Source: Litorivicinus sp. (GTDB taxonomy: Bacteria > Pseudomonadota > Gammaproteobacteria > Pseudomonadales > Litorivicinaceae). From it: a stretch of 38,847 bases of DNA. This document shows, piece by piece, positions 2,330 to 24,131 of this stretch. Position numbers and translations under genes: made by a program. Location of the stretch: positions 1 through 38,847 of the forward strand of contig QXYM01000090.1 in assembly GCA_009886945.1 (NCBI GenBank), read 5' to 3'. The notes under the pieces are model-generated. The model did no database searches, was not told where the DNA came from, and worked only from the letters and a program-made list of their open reading frames with translations. Position 1 is the stretch's first letter. Each line of letters opens with the position of its first letter.

Positions 2330-3586
2330 TTACATGTTTTTGATCATTTCCTGACCAAATTCAGAACAGGAGACCAGCGTCGCGTCGCCCATCAGGCGTT
2401 CAAAGTCATAAGTGACTTTCTTCGACTGAATCGCACCTTCCATGCCTTCAATGATCAGATCGGCTGCCTCGAACCACCCCAAATGACGCAGCATCATCTC
2501 TGCCGACAGAATCAATGAACCTGGGTTCACTTTGTCCTGACCAGCATACTTTGGCGCCGTGCCGTGAGTTGCTTCAAAGATGGCGACTTCAGCACCGATG
2601 TTTGCGCCGGGAGCAATCCCGATACCACCCACCTGAGCAGCCAGAGCGTCTGATAGGTAATCACCGTTTAAGTTCAGGGTCGCAATCGCACTATATTCTG
2701 CAGGACGTAGCAGAATCTGTTGCAACATGGCATCAGCGATCACATCTTTGACCACAATGTCATTGCCTGTTTTGGGGTTCTTGATCACACACCAAGGACC
2801 ACCATCCAATAGCGTGGCACCGAACTCTTCCCGAGCCAGTTCATAACCCCAGTCCTTAAAGGCACCTTCAGTGAACTTCATGATGTTCCCTTTGTGGACT
2901 AAGGTCACACTCGGTAAATCATTATCAATCGCATACTGGAAGGTCTTACGAACCAAGCGCTTGGTCCCTTCTTCAGACACCGGCTTGATACCAATTCCAC
3001 AGTTCTCTGGGAAACGAATCTTGGTGACGCCAAACTCGTTCCGCAGGATATCGATCAGCTTATCTGCTTCCGGTGTTCCGGCTTGATACTCGACGCCGGC
3101 ATAGATGTCTTCCGAGTTCTCACGGAAAATCACCATATTCGTCTTTTCAGGTTCTTTGACTGGACTTGGTACGCCGGTGAAATAACGCACTGGACGCAAA
3201 CAGAGGTACAAATCCAACTGCTGACGAAGAGCAACGTTCAACGAACGAATACCACCACCCACGGGCGTCGTCAGAGGGCCTTTGATCCCCACTTTATATT
3301 CTTTAAATGCATCGAGTGTTTCCTCAGGAAGCCACTCATCGGCACCATAGGTGGCGACAGATTTTTCACCACAAAACACTTCCATCCATGAAATTGACTT
3401 GGCACCGCCGTAGGCCTTCTCAACCGCAGCGTTGACAACATCAATCATTGGCGGAGTGATATCGACTCCGATACCATCGCCTTCAATGAAGGGAATGATT
3501 GGGTTATTGGGGACGTTGAGCGATCCATCCTGGTTCACAGTGATTTTTTCGCCTGACGTCGGCACTTGGATGTGTTGGTAGCCCAT
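2330..3586 (-). CDS. icd: NADP-dependent isocitrate dehydrogenase
   Basis: This enzyme catalyses oxidative decarboxylation of isocitrate to 2-oxoglutarate with NADP+ in the TCA cycle. The 418-residue protein matches the E. coli-type homodimeric enzyme in length (416). Visible features are [13 protein letters not shown] near the N-terminus, the substrate and phosphorylation loop [19 protein letters not shown] with Ser115 equivalent to E. coli Ser113, the [14 protein letters not shown] segment, and the metal/NADP-binding C-terminal half with [12 protein letters not shown] strong AGGAGAAAAGG precedes the ATG. Since aceK lies in the same window (9792-11528), Ser115 is very likely its phosphorylation target, controlling flux between the TCA cycle and the glyoxylate bypass. 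It diverges from rluE, as in E. coli and relatives. Confidence 0.98.
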
Positions 3587-3689
3587 CCTTTTCTCCTGTT
3601 GTGCTGTATCACGTTTGTATTGCGGGTGCGGATATTACCACTGTTTTGGTCCGACCACTTCAGGAATTGTCTTGTTCTTTGGGATAGGT

Positions 3690-4283
3690 ATGCTCGTTCT
3701 TTTTAACAAACCCTACGGAGTCCTCTGTCAATTCACAGGCGGTGAAGTGACGCTCAAAGACTACCTCGATATTCCCAATATCTATGCCGCAGGACGTCTC
3801 GATAAAGACTCAGAAGGACTGTTGATCCTGACTGACGATGGGCGCCTGCAAGATCACATCGCCAACCCCAAACATGGAAAACAGAAAACCTACTGGGTGC
3901 AAGTCGATGGTGCAATCACCGAAGAGGCTTGCCGGAGGCTCACCGACGGTGTTCTCTTAAAGGACGGTCCAGCGCGAGCCATTCATTGTCAAATCATCAA
4001 TCCCCCCGACGTCCCGCCGCGCGACCCACCGGTCCGTTTTCGTCAACACATTCCAACCAGTTGGATTGAAATCACGCTCGATGAAGGCCGTAATCGGCAA
4101 GTACGTCGCATGACCGCCGAGACCGGATTTCCCACTCTGCGTTTGGTGAGAAGCGCCGTCGGTGAATACTCCTTGGGTGATTTATCCCCAGGCGAGTATC
4201 GAGTGATGGATACAACTCGGGTAGAATCCGCCCATGCAAAACAAAGACACTCAAGTCATCGTCGGCATGTCAGGCGGCGTTGA
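3690..4283 (+). CDS. rluE: 23S rRNA pseudouridine synthase RluE
   Basis: A pseudouridine synthase of the RsuA/RluB/RluE family; RluE modifies U2457 of 23S rRNA. The start at 3690 (preceded by GGGATAGG) gives 197 residues beginning [15 protein letters not shown]. The catalytic motif [11 protein letters not shown] is at ~36-46 with Asp38 as nucleophile, and the C-terminal GRNRQVRRM motif is typical of the family. No S4 domain precedes the catalytic domain, as expected for RluE rather than RluB. Its position between icd and mnmA matches the gammaproteobacterial order. The reading frame runs ~50 nt into mnmA, ending in an Arg/His-rich tail, so the extreme C-terminus is probably dispensable. Confidence 0.93.
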
Positions 4284-5312
4284 TTCCTCAGTGACCGCCT
4301 ATCTCCTTAAAGAACAGGGCTATGCCGTCAGCGGCATGTTCATGAAAAACTGGGATGAAGACGATGGCACGGAATACTGCACCGCCATTGCAGATCTCAA
4401 AGATGCTGAACAAGTCGCCAATACCTTGGAAATCCCCCTTCATCGGGTCAATTTTGCCGCGGAATATTGGGATGATGTGTTCGAAAATTTTCTCTCCGAA
4501 GTCAAGGCAGGAAGAACCCCAAACCCGGACATCCTCTGTAACCGAGAAATCAAGTTTCGCGCGTTTCTTGATTATGCCCGAGAGCTCGGTGCAGATCTCA
4601 TCGCCACCGGGCACTACGTCCGTCGTGTCGACAGCGAAAACCCACTGCACCGAGGTCTCGATCGAAATAAAGATCAAAGCTATTTTCTCTGGGCCCTCAC
4701 CGAAGAGCAGGTCAAATCCTCGCTGTTCCCGGTCGGTGATTTGCTCAAACCGAAAGTGCGCGATATTGCCGAAGCTCAGGGGTTTATCACCGCTCGTAAA
4801 AAAGATTCCACCGGAATCTGCTTTATTGGTGAGCGTCGCTTCAGCGACTTTCTCAAAACCTACGTCAAGCCCGCTCCTGGGCCCATCATCACGGATGACG
4901 GCGAGGTCATTGGAGAACATCAAGGACTGATGTTTTACACCTTAGGGCAACGTCAGGGTCTTGGCATCGGTGGGCTCAAACACCATTCCGACGCGCCTTG
5001 GTTTGTTGCTGACAAACAGCTCGAGACCAATGCGCTTGTCGTGGTTCAAGGCACTGATCACCCCAAACTCTTCGCCAAAGGACTGTTAGCCCGCCAAATC
5101 AACTGGATTGGCAAGCCACCGAGTCTTCCTGGACGCTACACAGCAAAAGTCCGTTACAGGGCGCCGGATGCGCCTTGTGCAATTGAAATGCGTGGCGACG
5201 ATCTTCACATAACATTTGACCAACCCGAACGAGCCATCACGCCCGGCCAATCGGTCGTGATTTACGACGGTGAAGCTTGTCTCGGCGGCGCCGTGATTGA
5301 GGAAGCCCTTGC

Positions 5313-15686: not shown

Positions 15687-17354
15687 ATGGTTGGATTAGC
15701 CAAAAGCGCCCATCTCACCAATCCTTTCCACGCACCCGAGGAAAAGCGATTTGAGATCCCTGGTGAAATTGCCCGCAAACCGGGCATTTATGAAGACGCA
15801 CTGAAAGCCGGCTGGGAACTCCAGCAACGCCCTCAAGGTGCTCCTGTTGCTGCGATCGAACGTCAGCACCAAAAAAATCGAATGACCGTGTGGGAACGGA
15901 TTCGATTATTGGTGGATGAAGAACCCACCATCCTCTTTCAAAACTGGGGACCAAACCTCGATGGTGCCAGCCTCGTCACCGCACTGGCGAAAGTCGGAGG
16001 CCGGGACGTTGCCATCTATGGACACGATTTTACCGTTCGTGCGGGATCGATGGATGCAACCAACGGCTCAAAACTCGCACAGCTCTTTGCGACCGCCGGA
16101 AAGCTTGGTATCCCAGTTGTTGGGTTTAATGACTCAGCGGGCGCTTATGTCCCAGCTGGGGTTGGGGGACTCGACGGCTATGCCGAGGCCTTCCGGGCTC
16201 TCCGTGAGATTTCAGGTCGTGTTCCATCGATCATGTGCATGTTTGGATTCAACGCCGGCGGAGGCTCATATCTACCGCGCCAAGGATCCTTTGTCATCCA
16301 ACCCAATGACACCTTCTTTGGGTTGACAGGCCCGTCCGTCATCAAAAGTGTGCTCGGCGAAGATGTGACACCCGACGAACTGGGAGGCCCTCGTGTGCAC
16401 AGCCAGACTGGCGTCACCGACTTCGTGGTCGATGATGAGGTTCAAGCGATCCGCAAAGTCCGTCGACTGTTGCGCTTTCTGCCATCAAACAATGAAACAA
16501 TGGCCCCGTTCCAACCAACATCGGACCCAATTTCACGAAAAACCTGGGATGCCGATATTCTCTTGAAACGCGCGTTCAATTCGCCAAGCGGTTTTAATAC
16601 TCCGCTGGATGTCACCATCATGATTCAACAAATTTGCGACCATGGGGATTTTTACGAGTTCCAGCCAAATCGGGCTCGGAATACGATCTGCGCCTTTGGA
16701 CGCATTGCAGGTCACGTGATCGGCTTCTGTGCAAACAATTCCGCAGTCGCCTCAGGGCAAATTGATATCGATGCAGCGCTCAAAAACGCCCGGTTCATCC
16801 GATTCTGTAATCTCTACAACATTCCCATGTTATTTATGGAAGACACCACCGGTTTCTTGCCGGGCCGCGATCAAGAAAGTCGAGGCATTGTTCAGGCCGG
16901 TCGTGCCATGCTCGATGCTATCATCGATCTTCGCGTTCCACGTTTTCTGTTAATTATCCGAAATGCCTTTGGTGGCGCCTATGCCGCATTCAACAACTAC
17001 AAACTCGGCGCCGATATGGTCTTCGCACTACCCACCACTCGCTTGGCAGTCATGGGTCCTGCGGGTAAAGAATTTGTCTATAAAGATGAACTCAAGGCGT
17101 TACGCCTCGAAGCGAAAACCCGCGCAGCCAAGGGTGATGCGGAAGCAACACAGTGGCTCAAAGAACAGGAAATGCTCTTGGGCCAGCGCTATGAAGCTGA
17201 GCTGATGAACCCGAAAGAGGCGCTCTCTTTAGGTTCGATCAGCCAAATCGTGATGCCTCAGGATTTACGACACACTCTCGGTGACAATTTCATCCGTTAC
17301 ATCAAGGCCTACCAGCCGAAACCGATGACCGCGATCCAGAGGGAGTTTCACTAA
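15687..17354 (+). CDS. Acyl-CoA (probably propionyl-CoA) carboxylase, carboxyltransferase subunit
   Basis: A 555-residue biotin-dependent carboxyltransferase transferring CO2 from carboxybiotin to an acyl-CoA. It has the two crotonase-like halves: [20 protein letters not shown] (~150-170, first oxyanion region), and [21 protein letters not shown] with [19 protein letters not shown] in the second half. The stretch [14 protein letters not shown] replaces the AVMGPEGAV-type loop common in propionyl-CoA carboxylase beta chains. Context (mutase, MeaB, epimerase) makes propionyl-CoA the likely substrate. An AAGGA at 15672-15676 precedes the ATG. The stop overlaps the biotin carboxylase start (TAATG). 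Slightly longer than typical PccB (510-540). Acetyl-CoA or another acyl-CoA cannot be excluded. Confidence 0.88.
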
Positions 17355-20131
17355 TGAGCCACGATTATATTCACCAAAACCGTCGCTTATCCCAGTCGAA
17401 CGCGTCCTGGATTCAGCAATTTGCTTGCGAAGACATTGACTGTTTAATCATTTGCCGGGGACCCATCCGCAAAGAGGTCATGGATGTCTTCACCGAGATG
17501 GGCGCCAAATACAGCATTCTGTTGTCAGAAAAAGATTCCATTATTTATCAAAATGCGCTGGCTCCAGAATTACGGTTGATCTCGGATCCGACCCGCATCC
17601 ATCGAGTACCGGATTATACCGGTGCCAGCAAAGAGGAGCGCGATCAACGGATCCAACAAATCATCCAAATCGCAAAAGACAACGGTCATAATTCGATCTT
17701 TGCAGGCTACGGCTTCATGGCTGAAGACGAGAGTCTGGTGCGTGCCATCGAGGAATCAGGATTAACTTTTATTGGTCCTTGCTCACGCACCGTTCGCCAG
17801 GCCGGACTGAAAGACGAAGCCAAACGCACGGCGCTTGCCGCTGATGTTTCAGTAGTCCCTGGTGTTGACGACCTCACAGTCCGAACGCTACTCGCCAAAG
17901 CCAGTCGTGAGGGTGGCCTTGATGTCATCGCGAAAGCTCACCAACTGCAGATTCCTGACGGCGCCTCGGATGCTGATCAAGCCGAAGCCCTTTTGGCAGC
18001 CAGTTATCAGGCGCTCGTTGATGTCATCAGCATCGACGAGATCGCCGCACAAGCCGAGATTGAAGTTGCCAAATTGTTTGATCAACAACCGAATAATCGG
18101 ATTCGCTTGAAAGCAATTGGTGGCGGTGGCGGTAAAGGTCAACGCATCCTGGTGGCGCCAAAGGACTACCCTGGCGACCATCATACGCAGGTCAAAGACG
18201 CAGCATCCAAAGTGCCTGCGCTCCTGCGTGAAGTGTTAAATGAGGTCAAAGCCACCGGTCGTGGCGATAACAAGAACGTGTTGATCGAGCTGAATATCGA
18301 AACCACGCGTCACCAAGAAATCCAGGTCATCGGTAATGGCGAGTGGTGCCTCACGCTCGGTGGACGCGACTGCTCGCTGCAGATGCATGAACAGAAACTG
18401 TTGGAAGTCTCAACCACAGTGGAGAGCTTGCAACGTGCGATCGATGCTTCGGATCAACATCCGGCGCAACAAGAAGCCTTGGCAATGGATCTCGCCATCC
18501 TCGAGCGGATGGAAGACGAAGCCACACGCTTCGGCTCGGCGGTCGGATTGGATTCGGTATCGACCTTCGAATGTATCGTCGATGCCGACCAACACTTTTT
18601 CATGGAGATGAATACCCGCATCCAGGTTGAACACCGCGTCAGCGAACTCTGCTACGGCTTACGGTTTGAAAATCCCAATGATCCGTCTGAAGCCTTCGTC
18701 GTCAACTCATTGGTTGAAGCCATGGCCATTATCGCCTGGCACAAACACAAGCTTCCAAAACCCACTCGCGTCCCACGCGTCACTGCCTCGGTTGAGGCGC
18801 GACTGAACGCAACGAACGCAGGACTGGCACCGCATGCAGGCGGCGTCATTGAGCACTGGTCTTCACCAATTGCCGGTGAGATTCGTGATGACCAAGGGAT
18901 CTGTGTCAAAAATCCAGATACCGGCGCCTTCATGAAATACACCCTCGCAGGTGCTTACGACTCCAATGTCGCCTTGCTGTTAACCGTTGGTGATGATCGA
19001 GTGGTCAGTTATGAGCGGATGGCTGAAGTACTGCGCAGAATGACAATTGACGGTCAGGATGTGCAAACCAATCTCGAATTTCACTACGGACTGGTCCACT
19101 GGTTCTTGGCCAAGAATCCCTATGCCAAATCAACCACAGCCTTTATCCAGCCGTACCTGACTTTGACCGGATTACTCTTTGAACAGGCACAAAAAATCGA
19201 TTTACATGCTGGCTTCCAGTACCTCGCAGATCGATCCGGTGCTCCTGAGATCTTTGCGAGAAAGCAAACGCTCATCACCCGCCCCTTAACCTGCTTAATG
19301 ACCAATCCTCACCGATTGATTGGATGGATTTCAAAGGTCCGGTCCGATTGGACGGTCAACGCAGGTCAATTCAACTGGCAATCAAATCCATTCCACGTGT
19401 TAGCTGAGCTGTATCACTACCTCAATATGGACTTTGTTGAGGGGGCTCCCGCGCTTGAAGTGATCTGGGATCATGATCAAACCATTCTCGAGCAAGGATT
19501 GAGTTTCTATCAGGATCTCGACAACAAACTTGGTCCGAACGATTGGAATCAATGGCAACAGATCTTAAACCAGACATCCCCACCCGACGGGATTGATCCA
19601 AGTCTCTGGGCGGACATTCAAGCCGCTCATCAAGGCTTCCAGGCAGGACTTGAGCTTTTAGCAGTGGTTGCTCAATCAGCGCTCGCAGTGGGCTTTGATG
19701 AGCTCACCGTTGAAGCCGATCTCACGGTCGTCATCCCTGAGCGGTTGAAGGATCCAGAACTGACCGAACACGCACGCAAAATCCTCGTACCGCCACCAGT
19801 GGCCTCCGCCAACGAGATCGTTGCGATGTCAGGTGGGATGTTCTACGCCCAAGAAACACCGGGCGCGCCACACTTCTTACAAGTCGGAAGCCACTTTGAG
19901 GTCGGCGATCCTCTCTACATTATCGAGGTCATGAAGATGTTCAATAAAGTGTATGCTGAATTTTCTGGGACCGTGACTGAAGCGCTGATCGAACAAAGTG
20001 ATGGAGTCATCGTGAAAAAAGGTCAGCCTTTATACCGCATCGAGCCTGATGAAGTGGCCGAAGAGATTGACGAAGACATGGTTGCCCAAGCCCGTCTTTC
20101 GTATACCGTCGAACAACTCAGTACGTTGTGA
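17354..20131 (+). CDS. Unusual 925-residue biotin carboxylase / biotin carrier subunit of the acyl-CoA carboxylase
   Basis: This subunit carboxylates its own biotin with ATP and bicarbonate and hands it to the adjacent carboxyltransferase. The BC N-domain begins at ~28 ([12 protein letters not shown]) and contains [20 protein letters not shown]. The ATP-grasp Gly loop [10 protein letters not shown] is at 253-262, about 65 residues later than expected after allowing for the N-terminal extension, so a helical insertion sits at ~195-250. [19 protein letters not shown] and [10 protein letters not shown] (418-427) keep catalytic and metal residues. A long middle region (~560-830) precedes the BCCP domain with the biotinylation site EVMKM, Lys861. 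A ~60-residue C-terminal part ends in an acidic tail. Typical PccA is ~670 residues. Propionyl-CoA specificity is inferred from neighbours. Confidence 0.87.
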
Positions 20132-20138
20132 GGACCGC

Positions 20139-22274
20139 ATGACAGACAAAAAGCAATGGGAAGCGTTGGTTGCCAAAGAATCCAAAGGACTGTCACCGGA
20201 TGAGATGACTTGGTTCACACCCGAAGGGATTGGACTGAAAATCCTCTACACCGAAGAGGACGTTCAGCATCTGGATCAACGGAACAGTCTCCCTGGAATG
20301 GCACCTTTCATGCGCGGCCCCAAAGCGACCATGTACGCTGGTCGCCCTTGGACCATCCGTCAATATGCCGGATTCTCCACCGCTGAAGAATCCAACGCGT
20401 TTTATCGCAAAGCCCTAGCAGCTGGTGGCCAGGGCGTTTCTGTTGCCTTTGATTTGGCCACCCATCGCGGTTATGACTCCGATCATCCTCGTGTCTCAGG
20501 TGATGTCGGAAAGGCCGGTGTGGCGATCGATTCAGTGGAAGATATGAAGATCTTGTTTGATGGTATCCCGCTTGACCAGGTCTCGGTCTCCATGACCATG
20601 AACGGTGCAGTCCTACCAGTCCTTGCAGGTTATATTGTCGCTGCCGAGGAACAAGGAGTCAGCCAAGATCAACTCTCAGGAACGATCCAGAACGACATCC
20701 TGAAAGAATTTATGGTCCGTAACACCTATATTTATCCACCCGAACCCTCGATGCGGATCATCGGTGACATCATCGGCTACTGTTCTGAACATATGCCGAA
20801 ATTCAACACCATTTCCATCTCTGGCTACCATATTCAGGAAGCCGGAGCCGATGCAGCCCTCGAACTGGCCTATACGCTCGCTGACGGCAAAGAATACATT
20901 CGGACGGCTTTAGCGGCTGGACTCGATATCGACCAGTTTGCTCCACGTTTGTCCTTTTTCTTCGGCATTGGAATGAACTTCTACATGGAAATCGCGAAGC
21001 TCCGAGCGGCGCGACTCTTGTGGAACGAGATCGTCAATGAATTCAATCCAACATCAGAACGATCAACCGTCTTGCGAACCCATTGTCAAACCTCGGGCTG
21101 GTCATTGACCGAACAAGATCCATACAACAACGTCGTTCGCACGACCATCGAGGCAATGGCTGCTGTGTTTGGCGGCACTCAATCCTTGCACACCAACTCC
21201 TTTGATGAGGCGATTGCCTTGCCGACTGAGTTCAGTGCCCGTATCGCGCGGAATACCCAGTTGATTCTGCAAGAAGAAACAGGCATCCGCCAGGTGGTCG
21301 ATCCTTGGGGTGGTTCTTACCTGATGGAGTCGCTGACCCATGAATTGGCAGAGCGCGCCCGTGAGTTGATCGCTGAAGTTGAAAAAGAAGGCGGCATGGC
21401 AAAGGCGATTGAGGCCGGCCTACCTAAGCTCCGTATCGAGGAATCAGCCACCAACAAACAAGCGCGAATTGACCGCGGTGAAGATGTCATCGTTGGCGTC
21501 AACAAATACACACTACCAGAAGGATCTGAAGAGGACATCGACGTTCTCTCCATCGACAATGAAAAAGTTCGCGACGCACAGATTGAGCGCTTACAGCGCA
21601 TCAAGGGAACACGTGATCAAGCGCGCGCTGATGCCTGCCTGAAGGCCATTACTGATTGTGCCACTGGAGGTTCTGGCAACCTTCTCGGCTTAGCTGTCGA
21701 AGCCACACGTGCGCGGTGTACAGTTGGTGAAATCTCTGATGCAATGGAGATTGTCTTTCAACGATTCCAAGCAACTCATCGGAGTGTCTCAGGCGTGTAT
21801 GGTAGCCATTTTAAGGATGATGCAGATTGGCAGGCGCTCACCACGCGAATTGCTGAGTTCGAGTCCAATCAAGGACGCCGGCCACGGATTTTAGTGGCCA
21901 AAATGGGGCAAGATGGTCACGACCGTGGCGCGAAAGTCGTCGCCACTGCCTTTGCAGACTTGGGATTTGATGTCGATTTAAGCCCCATGTTTTCCACACC
22001 CGAAGAAGTCGCGCGTCAAGCCATCGAGAATGATGTTCATGCCATCGGTGTCAGCTCGCTGGCAGCTGGTCACCTGACACTGATTCCAGAGCTCAAAGCA
22101 GCGCTCGCCAAAGAAGGTGCTGATGATATTGTCGTCTTCGCCGGCGGCGTCATTCCAAGAAAGGATTATCAAGCGCTCTATGAGCAAGGTGTTGCCGCGA
22201 TTTTTGGTCCCGGAACCAAGATCCCAGCCTGTGCTAAATCGGTTCTCGATGCCATTGAGAACACCAGTGCCTGA
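20139..22274 (+). CDS. Methylmalonyl-CoA mutase (adenosylcobalamin-dependent)
   Basis: A 711-residue single-chain mutase interconverting (R)-methylmalonyl-CoA and succinyl-CoA by a radical mechanism. The TIM-barrel domain holds [37 protein letters not shown] (substrate-binding) and [14 protein letters not shown]. The C-terminal B12-binding domain has DGHDRG at 592-597, where His594 is the lower axial cobalt ligand, then [12 protein letters not shown] and GGVIPRKDY. Length and domain order match the catalytic alpha chain, homologous to E. coli ScpA and human MUT, and no small beta subunit is present. It is preceded by GAGGACC 6 nt after the biotin carboxylase stop and overlaps meaB at its end. 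It requires B12, whose synthesis genes are not in the window. Confidence 0.97.
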
Positions 22275-23238
22275 GATCGACTTTCAAGCACTCCGCAATG
22301 GCCAGCGCCGCGCGCTGGCCAAAGCCATTACGCTGATCGAGTCCAGCCACCCATCACACCGCAAACAGGCTGCTGCGCTTCTTGAGCGCTGCCTTCCACA
22401 CAGTGGACAGAGTCTCAGAATTGGCATTTCAGGGGTCCCTGGCGTGGGCAAATCAACCTTTATTGAAGCCTTTGGGCTGTTTCTAATTGGTCTTGGAAAG
22501 CGCGTTGGTGTTCTCGCTGTCGACCCCTCGTCACCCTTGCATGGTGGTTCAATCTTAGGTGACAAAACACGCATGGAACGGCTCTCACGCGAGGATCATG
22601 CGTTTATTCGACCGTCTCCGGCTGGCCGCTCGCTCGGTGGTGTCGCCAACCGAACGCGAGAAGCCATTTTAGTCGCTGAATCTGCAGGGTTCGATGTCAT
22701 CCTGGTGGAAACCGTGGGTGTTGGACAAAGCGAATACGAAGTCCACTCAATGACCGATCTTTTTTTAGTACTGATGCAACCCGGTGCCGGTGATGAGCTG
22801 CAGGGGATCAAAAAAGGAATTTTGGAGTTGGCCGATTTGATTGTTGTCAATAAAGCCGACGGGGACGCCGAACGACTCGCCAGTCAATCAGTCGTGCATT
22901 ACAAAAACGCCATGGGCTTTCTGAATCATCAGGGCTTTTGGACACCCGAGGTGCTCTCGGTCAGTTCAATCGAACCGCGAGGCATCGATACCCTCTGGGA
23001 ACGAATGGTCGCCTACTGTGAGGCTGGATCCGAAGCCATTCCTGCTCGCCGAGCCGCACAGGCCAGTCAATGGTTCGAACGATTGTTAAATGACGGCGTC
23101 ACCGAACTTCTGAAGGCTAACGCTACTTGGGCTGACCTTTATCAGGCGCAAAAACAACGGGTTGCAAACGGTGACATCGCGCCACCTCAGGCCGCACTGG
23201 CCTGCATTGAACCTCTGGAAAACGCGCTCAAGTCTTAA
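22249..23238 (+). CDS. meaB: MeaB-family GTPase chaperone of methylmalonyl-CoA mutase
   Basis: MeaB/ArgK is a SIMIBI-class G protein that protects the mutase from inactivation and gates cofactor loading. The 329 residues from the ATG at 22249 contain Walker [10 protein letters not shown] at ~62-70, [21 protein letters not shown] (switch I-like), [15 protein letters not shown] (Walker B and switch region) and the NKADGD guanine-specificity motif. The start lies inside the mutase gene; a GTG at 22267 is an alternative, 6 residues shorter. Overlap of 26 nt with the mutase gene suggests balanced synthesis. The 3' end overlaps the opposing CBS gene by 4 nt. Confidence 0.95.
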
Positions 23239-23657
23239 TGGGCCGGTTCGTCTTCCGGAATCTCATAAGCGCGAACCGCACGCAAGAGGTCCGTCCGTGA
23301 GATCTGTCCCACCAAACGATTCTCCTGATCAACGACCGGCAAACGACGACGACCGGAGGACACCATTTGATTTGCCGCCTCCACAATACTGGTCCCGAGC
23401 CGAATGGTATCCACTTGAGACGTCATGACATCGCCGACGATGCCCCCAACGTCGCCTTGATAGGTCCCGACCAAAATGGCTTTAAGACAGTCGTGCTCTG
23501 ACACCATCCCAATCAAATGGCCGGATTGATCCACTACAGGGGTCCCAGAAATCCCACGACGCAATAAGAGATCCACCAGCGCGAGCAGATCCATATCTCG
23601 AGTCGCCGTTGCTAAATTTTTGGTCATGAAATCATCAATTAAAATTGACCGAAACAT
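23235..23657 (-). CDS. CBS-domain-pair protein
   Basis: A 140-residue stand-alone protein with two tandem CBS motifs. The first is at ~10-65 (VDLLLRRGISGTPVVDQSGHLIGMVSEHD), the second at ~75-130 (DVMTSQVDTIRLGTS, RRRLPVVDQENRLVGQISRTDLLR). Such Bateman modules sense adenine nucleotides or SAM and regulate partner proteins. A GGAGG lies upstream of its ATG. It is inserted antisense between meaB and the epimerase gene, which makes an energy-sensing link to the methylmalonyl pathway conceivable but unproven. Confidence 0.88.
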   Translation of the reverse strand: MFRSILIDDFMTKNLATATRDMDLLALVDLLLRRGISGTPVVDQSGHLIGMVSEHDCLKAILVGTYQGDVGGIVGDVMTSQVDTIRLGTSIVEAANQMVSSGRRRLPVVDQENRLVGQISRTDLLRAVRAYEIPEDEPAH

Positions 23658-23723
23658 CTAAGCCTCCGTTTTTCTTATATGCTTACCGGAAGAATACGCT
23701 CACACCACAGGAGAACAATAGGG

Positions 23724-24131
23724 ATGTTGCATAAAATCGATCATGTCGGAATTGCTGTCACTGACATCGAGGCAGCCATTAAAACCTATGAAGGCCTTGG
23801 TTTTACCCTCAAAGGCCGCGATCGCGTGGATTCCCAAAAGGTTGAAACTGCCTTTTTCCAAATCGGAGAATCTTGTATCGAATTGATTGCAGCCACCGAA
23901 GCCGATAGCCCCATTGCGAAGTTTATCGAGAAGAACGCAGGCAAAGGTGGTCTGCAACAGCTTGCGATTACAGTCACTGATATTGAAGCCGAACTCCAAC
24001 GACTCAAACACGAAGGCTACACGCTAATCAATGAATCACCCGTCCCTGGGGCACATGGAACTAAGGTCGCCTTTGTTCACCCCAAAGACACTGAAGGCGT
24101 CTTGCTCGAGCTTTGCGAACATCCAAAGTGA
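23724..24131 (+). CDS. mce: Methylmalonyl-CoA epimerase
   Basis: This 135-residue vicinal-oxygen-chelate enzyme interconverts (S)- and (R)-methylmalonyl-CoA, bridging propionyl-CoA carboxylase and the mutase. The start at 23724 follows AGGAG (spacing ~10). Metal ligands of the family are recognisable: His7 in KIDHVGIAV, Gln in LQQLAITVTD, His in FVHPKDTEGVLLELCEH and the Glu in LLELCEH. Two beta-alpha-beta-beta-beta modules are visible. The frame is open upstream but the family begins at MLHKIDHVGIAV. It is separated from meaB by the antisense CBS gene, so it has its own promoter somewhere in 23658-23723. Confidence 0.94.
   Translation: MLHKIDHVGIAVTDIEAAIKTYEGLGFTLKGRDRVDSQKVETAFFQIGESCIELIAATEADSPIAKFIEKNAGKGGLQQLAITVTDIEAELQRLKHEGYTLINESPVPGAHGTKVAFVHPKDTEGVLLELCEHPK

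Follow-up and report, generated by a model that had tools for sequence, protein, structure and literature searches.

A divergent biotin-dependent carboxylase with a helical middle domain, probably a propionyl-CoA carboxylase in place of PccA/PccB

How is propionyl-CoA carboxylated in bacteria without the canonical enzyme PccA/PccB? This question is raised by a gene pair on contig QXYM01000090.1 of Litorivicinus sp. (Gammaproteobacteria, assembly GCA_009886945.1), whose 38,847 nucleotides form the window analyzed here. The pair encodes a carboxyltransferase (CT) and, behind it, a 925-residue protein with a biotin carboxylase (BC) domain, for which a preliminary description had suggested a carboxylase architecture of its own that replaces PccA/PccB. 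This proposal is supported by the genomic context, by the domain content and by a distribution that nearly excludes canonical PccA, as far as sequences and predicted models can tell. We consider the 925-residue protein to be probably the alpha subunit of a divergent two-subunit biotin-dependent propionyl-CoA carboxylase (PCC) that stands in for PccA/PccB. The coordinates of the features are listed in Table 1.

The open reading frame (ORF) described before was confirmed, including its glycine loop and the biotin site EVMKM with Lys861, which was accepted as the (A/V)MKM lysine of biotin carrier domains. In Pfam searches the protein matched Biotin_carb_N (residues 31-145), CPSase_L_D2 (286-436), Biotin_carb_C (481-582) and Biotin_lipoyl (835-896), and no domain was assigned between residues 582 and 835. 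All three BC domains reached their cut-off, Biotin_carb_C barely (32.4 bits for a cut-off of 32.4). The 16 NCBIfam matches all stayed under theirs; the top score was 186 bits against 965, and the AccC model TIGR00514 gave 154.9 bits against 626.5. A CT domain of the PYC_OADA or HMGL-like type was not found on the 925-residue chain by Pfam at E<=1, with L100 as positive control. The biotin site is invariant in all 40 aligned relatives, and the C-terminal tail (residues 899-925) is acidic as proposed, with eight Asp/Glu and one Lys/Arg. The frame is uninterrupted over its full length in the great majority of the relatives, which excludes a chance ORF; in some draft genomes (e.g., G538, G699 and G658) the copy is broken or contains stop codons.

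The middle region noticed earlier between the BC domain and the biotin site was recovered as well, and up to the carrier it comprises 238 residues (583-820). When residues 586-814 were modelled alone, eleven helices and one two-stranded hairpin were obtained. For this domain of the window protein Pfam returned nothing at E<=1, and across 40 members of the family no Pfam family recurred in more than two. The nine families that did match, each in one or two of the 40 members and with E 0.017 or worse, were set aside as chance matches. A profile search of the PDB sequences yielded nothing significant (1vjx at E 0.8 was the only match), none of 92 Foldseek matches reached E<=0.001 (top match 0.96), and VIA-align gave a top Z of 3.1 among 490 aligned chains. 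The predicted fold is thus without a match in the searched library, which falls short of proving a new fold. Known domains were rejected as the source of the extra length, since Pfam and NCBIfam leave both 586-814 and the BC insertion 172-247 without a domain of their own.

According to passages of PMC4673880, BC and CT are tied together by a BT domain in propionyl-, methylcrotonyl- and geranyl-CoA carboxylases (PCC, MCC and GCC), in which a helix lies inside a beta-barrel of eight strands (seven in one MCC). No match to the corresponding model PF18140 (PCC_BT) was found in the window protein, while the reference PccA L103 matches it at 4.8e-27. As judged from the predicted model, the linking domain would therefore be different in kind from the BT barrel. 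We infer that this helical domain of about 230 residues most likely ties BC to CT. In the window's order a search for the middle domain found it in 71 of 194 genomes, at 73 places. By-eye comparison placed 70 of these within BCs of the same long type or their fragments and two (G538) directly behind one; a single match of 28 residues (G398 C180) lies outside.

The AlphaFold model of the whole protein, built with 40 aligned rows, has a mean pLDDT of 86.4 and a pTM of 0.86. Its BC part resembles solved BCs with Z between 36.9 and 39.0 among the 50 matches listed, one of which is E. coli BC 2j9g_B (Z 39.0, 433 residues, root-mean-square deviation 2.5). On the sequence level the window BC is 27-32% identical to 14 reference BCs, among which the reference PccA L103 is 41-71% identical to the other 13. 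Insertions were measured as runs of at least four residues against the AccC of the host, which aligns gap-free to an E. coli chain. The window protein has 25 additional residues at the N-terminus and insertions at 81-92 (12 residues), 172-247 (54, in runs of 31 and 23), 288-304 (17), 352-371 (20), 437-451 (15) and 517-525 (9). The preliminary description had located one helical insertion around residues 195-250; its helical nature is reproduced in the model (174-186, 189-195, 206-219 and 227-244, just before the strand entering the glycine loop), but its extent has to be corrected to 172-247, and the smaller insertions come in addition. Likewise the glycine loop does not lie about 65 residues late, as stated there, but is shifted by 94 residues relative to AccC (162-168), mostly because the main insertion is preceded by the N-terminal extension and the insertion 81-92. 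The segment 172-247 is the least conserved of the BC domain, with 44.5% mean pairwise identity against 75.4% and 69.9% in the flanks. It probably serves as a structural or assembly element.

Eleven positions of the BC domain, K153, K253, H320, K348, E406, E418, N420, R422, Q424, E426 and R483, are invariant in all 40 aligned relatives. They correspond to K116, K159, H209, K238, E276, E288, N290, R292, Q294, E296 and R338 of the E. coli enzyme, which we take to be its catalytic and substrate-binding residues. In this respect the catalytic residues are kept, as claimed before, but MHEQK cannot be counted among the kept motifs. In the loop QMHEQK the residues R234-R235-H236 (E. coli numbering) are replaced by M344-H345-E346, with Met in 39, His in 40 and Glu in 40 of the 40 relatives. 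The host AccC and seven other reference BCs have Arg-Arg in place of Met-His and His or Asn in place of Glu; a further reference, the AccC L118, has Arg-Tyr-His. The family motif CRGPIRKE likewise differs from its counterpart in the references, which is of the ANRGEIA-R type. Furthermore, E12 of AccC is replaced by proline, and R16 and R19 by E41 and D44. R16 and R19 are residues of the AccC dimer interface, and the title of one PDB entry names an R16E mutant.

A BC tree was calculated from 15 family members and 14 references (AccC, PccA, MccA/GccA, pyruvate carboxylase, urea carboxylase and fused acyl-CoA carboxylase), using only alignment columns occupied in 60% or more of the rows, which removes those present in the family alone. 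The family forms one side of a branch with support 100/100 and is joined to the 14 references by 1.32+2.04 changes per site. The preliminary description had also considered a place inside ordinary PccA, where known domains would account for the length. We found no Pfam domain and no solved fold to which the extra length could be ascribed, and the best tree does set the family next to PccA, though weakly supported (56/66) and on a very long branch. The protein was not classified as PccA, since a BT domain was searched for and not found and the placement in the tree is weak.

In a scan of one genome per species (84,980 species, ordinary BCs not excluded) 517 stretches matched, of which 500 encode some relative (E<=1e-3); in the best 80 of those the lowest identity is 55%. 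In the sample of the window's order 103 of 293 genomes contain the long BC (E<=1e-60; the window apart, at 43-96% identity), and so do 132 of 146 sampled from the class to which the Desulfuromonadales record L070 belongs (E<=1e-40). In even draws it was found in 2 of 369 genomes of the window's class and 1 of 299 of its phylum, with the window counted in both. None of the 1166 plasmid records with any match covers 80% of the protein.

The BT model of canonical PccA, PF18140, was found in 11 of 293 genomes of apparently the same order draw, in 10 of them over the cut-off. Nine of the 11 carry family code f220, from which none of the 103 long-BC genomes comes. Only G551 has both PF18140 and a long BC, and there the PF18140 match is partial, in a frame of 271 codons. 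In the class of L070 none of the 146 genomes gave a PF18140 match over the cut-off, and one weak match lies below it. In the host genome itself (96.8% complete, 144 contigs) no acyl-CoA CT was found other than this CT and those of the AccA/AccD types, and a search with the 925-residue protein returned AccC/AccB as the only proteins besides itself. According to parts of PMC8269220, the OM252 clade including LSUCC0096 (L002; cf. HIMB30, L005) consists of biotin auxotrophs with a BioY transporter, which contrasts with the biotin need of both this carboxylase and acetyl-CoA carboxylase (ACC).

The genes surrounding the long BC point to propionyl-CoA as substrate. In the window the start of the alpha subunit and the stop of the CT share one base (TAATG), and the ATG of the methylmalonyl-CoA mutase gene lies seven bases past the alpha-subunit stop. 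Between the genes for MeaB and the epimerase a gene for a CBS-domain protein is located on the opposite strand (23235-23657, minus), an arrangement seen in the window's lineage. For a census, 92 loci (L001-L080, L104-L115) were used, four of them not judgeable; L081 and L085-L096 were left out. The CT lies immediately upstream of the long BC in all 88 judged loci (12/12 in the window's lineage, 63/63 in the second and 13/13 in the third set). The 6 kb downstream contain a mutase gene in all ten loci of the window's lineage judged for it, in 43 of 54 of the second set, which includes one Verrucomicrobiaceae record (L057), and in none of the three loci of the third set judged for it (L070, L076, L079). 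In loci near the window and of the second set, MeaB and epimerase-like genes mostly accompany the mutase; in L055 the mutase is found upstream instead. In L014 (10871-11341) and L035 (10847-11335) the CT-BC pair is followed by a gene for a YiiD-type thioesterase (TIGR02447 over cut-off), with no mutase downstream, and the substrate of these two carboxylases may differ.

On wider stretches from the class of L070 a mutase-type gene (TIGR00641 over cut-off) was found downstream in 3 of 3 cases, in L123 about 4 kb away and beyond other genes. Of 12 short stretches six contain it too, and two of these share their genomes with the wide ones. The ORF choice on wide stretches took wrong-strand frames in places (L124, L014). 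L122 is the only wide stretch of this class checked for an epimerase, and one is present; just upstream of its CT-BC-mutase-epimerase genes (3087-5150, G733), genes for an LdhH-like iron-sulfur protein and a PuuR-like regulator are located, both below the NCBI cut-offs.

Table 1. Coordinates of the features in the window and the evidence for them.
Feature	Position	Strand	Evidence
CT (beta) subunit, PccB-type, 555 aa	15687..17354	+	Pfam Carboxyl_trans 4.9e-106; groups with PccB/AccB, not MccB (100/99)
CT N-terminal arm with NPF motif (~residues 11-36), possible docking element	15717..15794	+	NPF count
CT Ala433, aligned with acyl-pocket Asp of PccB (D422 of S. coelicolor PccB)	16983..16985	+	CT alignment
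Alpha subunit: BC + helical middle domain + biotin carrier, 925 aa	17354..20131	+	ORF, Pfam, AlphaFold model
Helical BC insertion before glycine loop, residues 172-247	17867..18094	+	Present in 40/40 aligned relatives; four helices in model
Glycine loop GGGGGKG, residues 256-262	18119..18139	+	Sequence and alignment
All-helical middle domain at BT position, residues 586-814	19109..19795	+	AF2 pLDDT 92.2, pTM 0.88; no Pfam, no PDB match E<=0.001
Biotin carrier domain, ~residues 822-898; biotin Lys861 at 19934-19936	19817..20047	+	Pfam Biotin_lipoyl 3.8e-10
Methylmalonyl-CoA mutase (inferred start)	20139..22274	+	NF006944 1264.5 bits vs cut-off 876
MeaB, mutase-associated GTPase (inferred start)	22249..23238	+	NF006958 425.7 bits vs cut-off 329
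Methylmalonyl-CoA epimerase	23679..24131	+	TIGR03081 143.3 bits vs cut-off 114.95

The CT partner anticipated in the preliminary description is thus a constant companion, but the altered AVMG loop ascribed to it turned out to be almost ordinary (AVMGPAG(K/V)E, compared with AVMGPEGA or AVMGARGA). In the CT tree, which carries a long-branch warning, the family groups with PccB/AccB and apart from MccB. Judged from the alignment, Ala433 would be the more telling change of the CT. The CTs end in QREF followed by His (93 rows), Phe (4) or Tyr (1) in all 98 rows, a set in which the window occurs twice (once as L081) and some genomes contribute near copies; the window CT ends in QREFH (17337-17351). 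At the N-terminus 71 of the 72 family CTs with a judgeable arm carry an NPF motif by plain count, and L076 has NPL.

This arm perhaps shares in tying BC to CT. The motif is missing from the CTs of the outliers G386, G399 and G440. The CT of G386 comprises 519 residues and lacks the arm, and its BC is compact; G399 combines a diverged middle domain with the lack of NPF. G440 keeps a recognizable middle domain without NPF, which speaks against a strict tie between arm and domain. That the two belong together is a hypothesis suggested by one clear case. The compact BC of G386 still adjoins mutase and MeaB, and beside its operon a gene for a 905-residue MeaB GTPase fused to GGDEF and EAL was seen (L130, 1547-4264).

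In the proposed pathway the BC domain would use ATP and bicarbonate to carboxylate the biotin on Lys861. The product methylmalonyl-CoA would be converted to succinyl-CoA by the neighboring epimerase and mutase. Several observations weigh against this assignment or blur it. In 11 of the 54 loci of the second set and in all three of the third, the 6 kb downstream encode no mutase, and the mutase genes in the class of L070 encode the catalytic part only, which makes their substrate less sure. Ala is found at the position of Ala433 in all 98 CT rows where the PccB L103 has Asp. According to sections of PMC7835884 this pocket Asp is conserved among carboxylases able to use propionyl-CoA, and the exchange D422I renders the S. 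coelicolor PCC promiscuous; the substrate range may thus exceed propionyl-CoA. The BC itself has E346 instead of the His/Asn and M344-H345 instead of the Arg-Arg of other BCs. The host also encodes one MmgE/PrpD protein, so that a methylcitrate route may handle propionate as well. Finally, G386 (L130, 5930-8152) has the same operon with a BC of 740 residues and a mere remnant of the middle domain, which indicates that this domain is dispensable in some members.

The Ala433 exchange, the promiscuity caused by Ile at the same site and the mutase-free loci, including the two with a thioesterase gene next to the pair, would all fit an acyl-CoA carboxylase of broad or different specificity (acetyl-, butyryl- or longer), with propionyl-CoA as one substrate among others. 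We regard this as unlikely in view of the mutase gene in all ten close and most of the other loci, mostly together with MeaB and epimerase-like genes, and of the mutase-type genes in the class of L070. We find it slightly less doubtful, although still improbable, that the family is a fast-evolving descendant of ordinary PccA in which the BT domain was rebuilt or replaced, without a separate lineage. The position beside PccA in the best BC tree, the grouping of the CT with PccB/AccB and an operon of the same type as in L103 and L120 agree with such a descent, but the long, fully supported branch to all 14 reference BCs does not, nor do the missing PCC_BT match and a modelled middle domain that is helical and not a barrel. 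That the protein is a degenerate or regulatory BC without catalysis, as the altered QMHEQK and CRGPIRKE motifs might suggest, is hardly credible, since the eleven catalytic positions and the biotin site are invariant, 132 of the 146 genomes from the class of L070 carry the gene, and in the host it is the sole acyl-CoA carboxylase found besides ACC. A propionyl-CoA carboxylase replacing PccA/PccB is therefore the reading that we prefer.

With less confidence than for this function we lean towards a separate structural class of PCC, spread over about a third of the order's genomes and most of the class of L070, in which an unseen helical fold, perhaps together with the NPF arm, would replace the BT barrel and build a different holoenzyme. 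If this is true, a widespread tying domain of another kind would add a type of holoenzyme. It would also suggest a way of propionyl-CoA carboxylation for the many Gammaproteobacteria and Desulfuromonadales-type bacteria that lack PccA, and correct pathway predictions based on PccA models, given that all NCBIfam matches of this protein stay below their cut-offs.

Among the open-access titles and abstract openings listed, none describes this form of carboxylase, and PMC10100682 mentions neither propionyl, methylmalonyl nor propionate. For Geobacter bemidjiensis a transcarboxylase with a 12S-type subunit, a different enzyme, was predicted for propionyl-CoA (in the relevant part of PMC2996986). 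The functional class is shared with XCC (Lombard and Moreira, 2011, PMC3199775); the accessible text of that study lists XCC and no PCC in both Gamma- and Deltaproteobacteria, and nothing in it describes the BC form of the window. With the E. coli-type AccC the protein shares the BC fold (Z 39) and the ATP/biotin residues, but AccC is a single-domain subunit of about 450 residues, whereas the window BC has about 590 residues with E41/D44 for R16/R19 and is followed by two more domains. Like MccA/GccA it carries BC, linking domain and carrier in one chain; however, its BC is 30-32% identical to theirs, the model contains no BT barrel and the CT is not of the MccB type (25-26% identical). The closest likeness is to PccA/PccB (L103, L120), which also combine BC and carrier on one chain with a separate PccB-type CT in an operon with methylmalonyl-CoA mutase. 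In comparison to these the window BC is 31% identical, contains insertions and a helical middle domain without a PCC_BT match, and the CT, 34-38% identical to PccB, has Ala for the pocket Asp.

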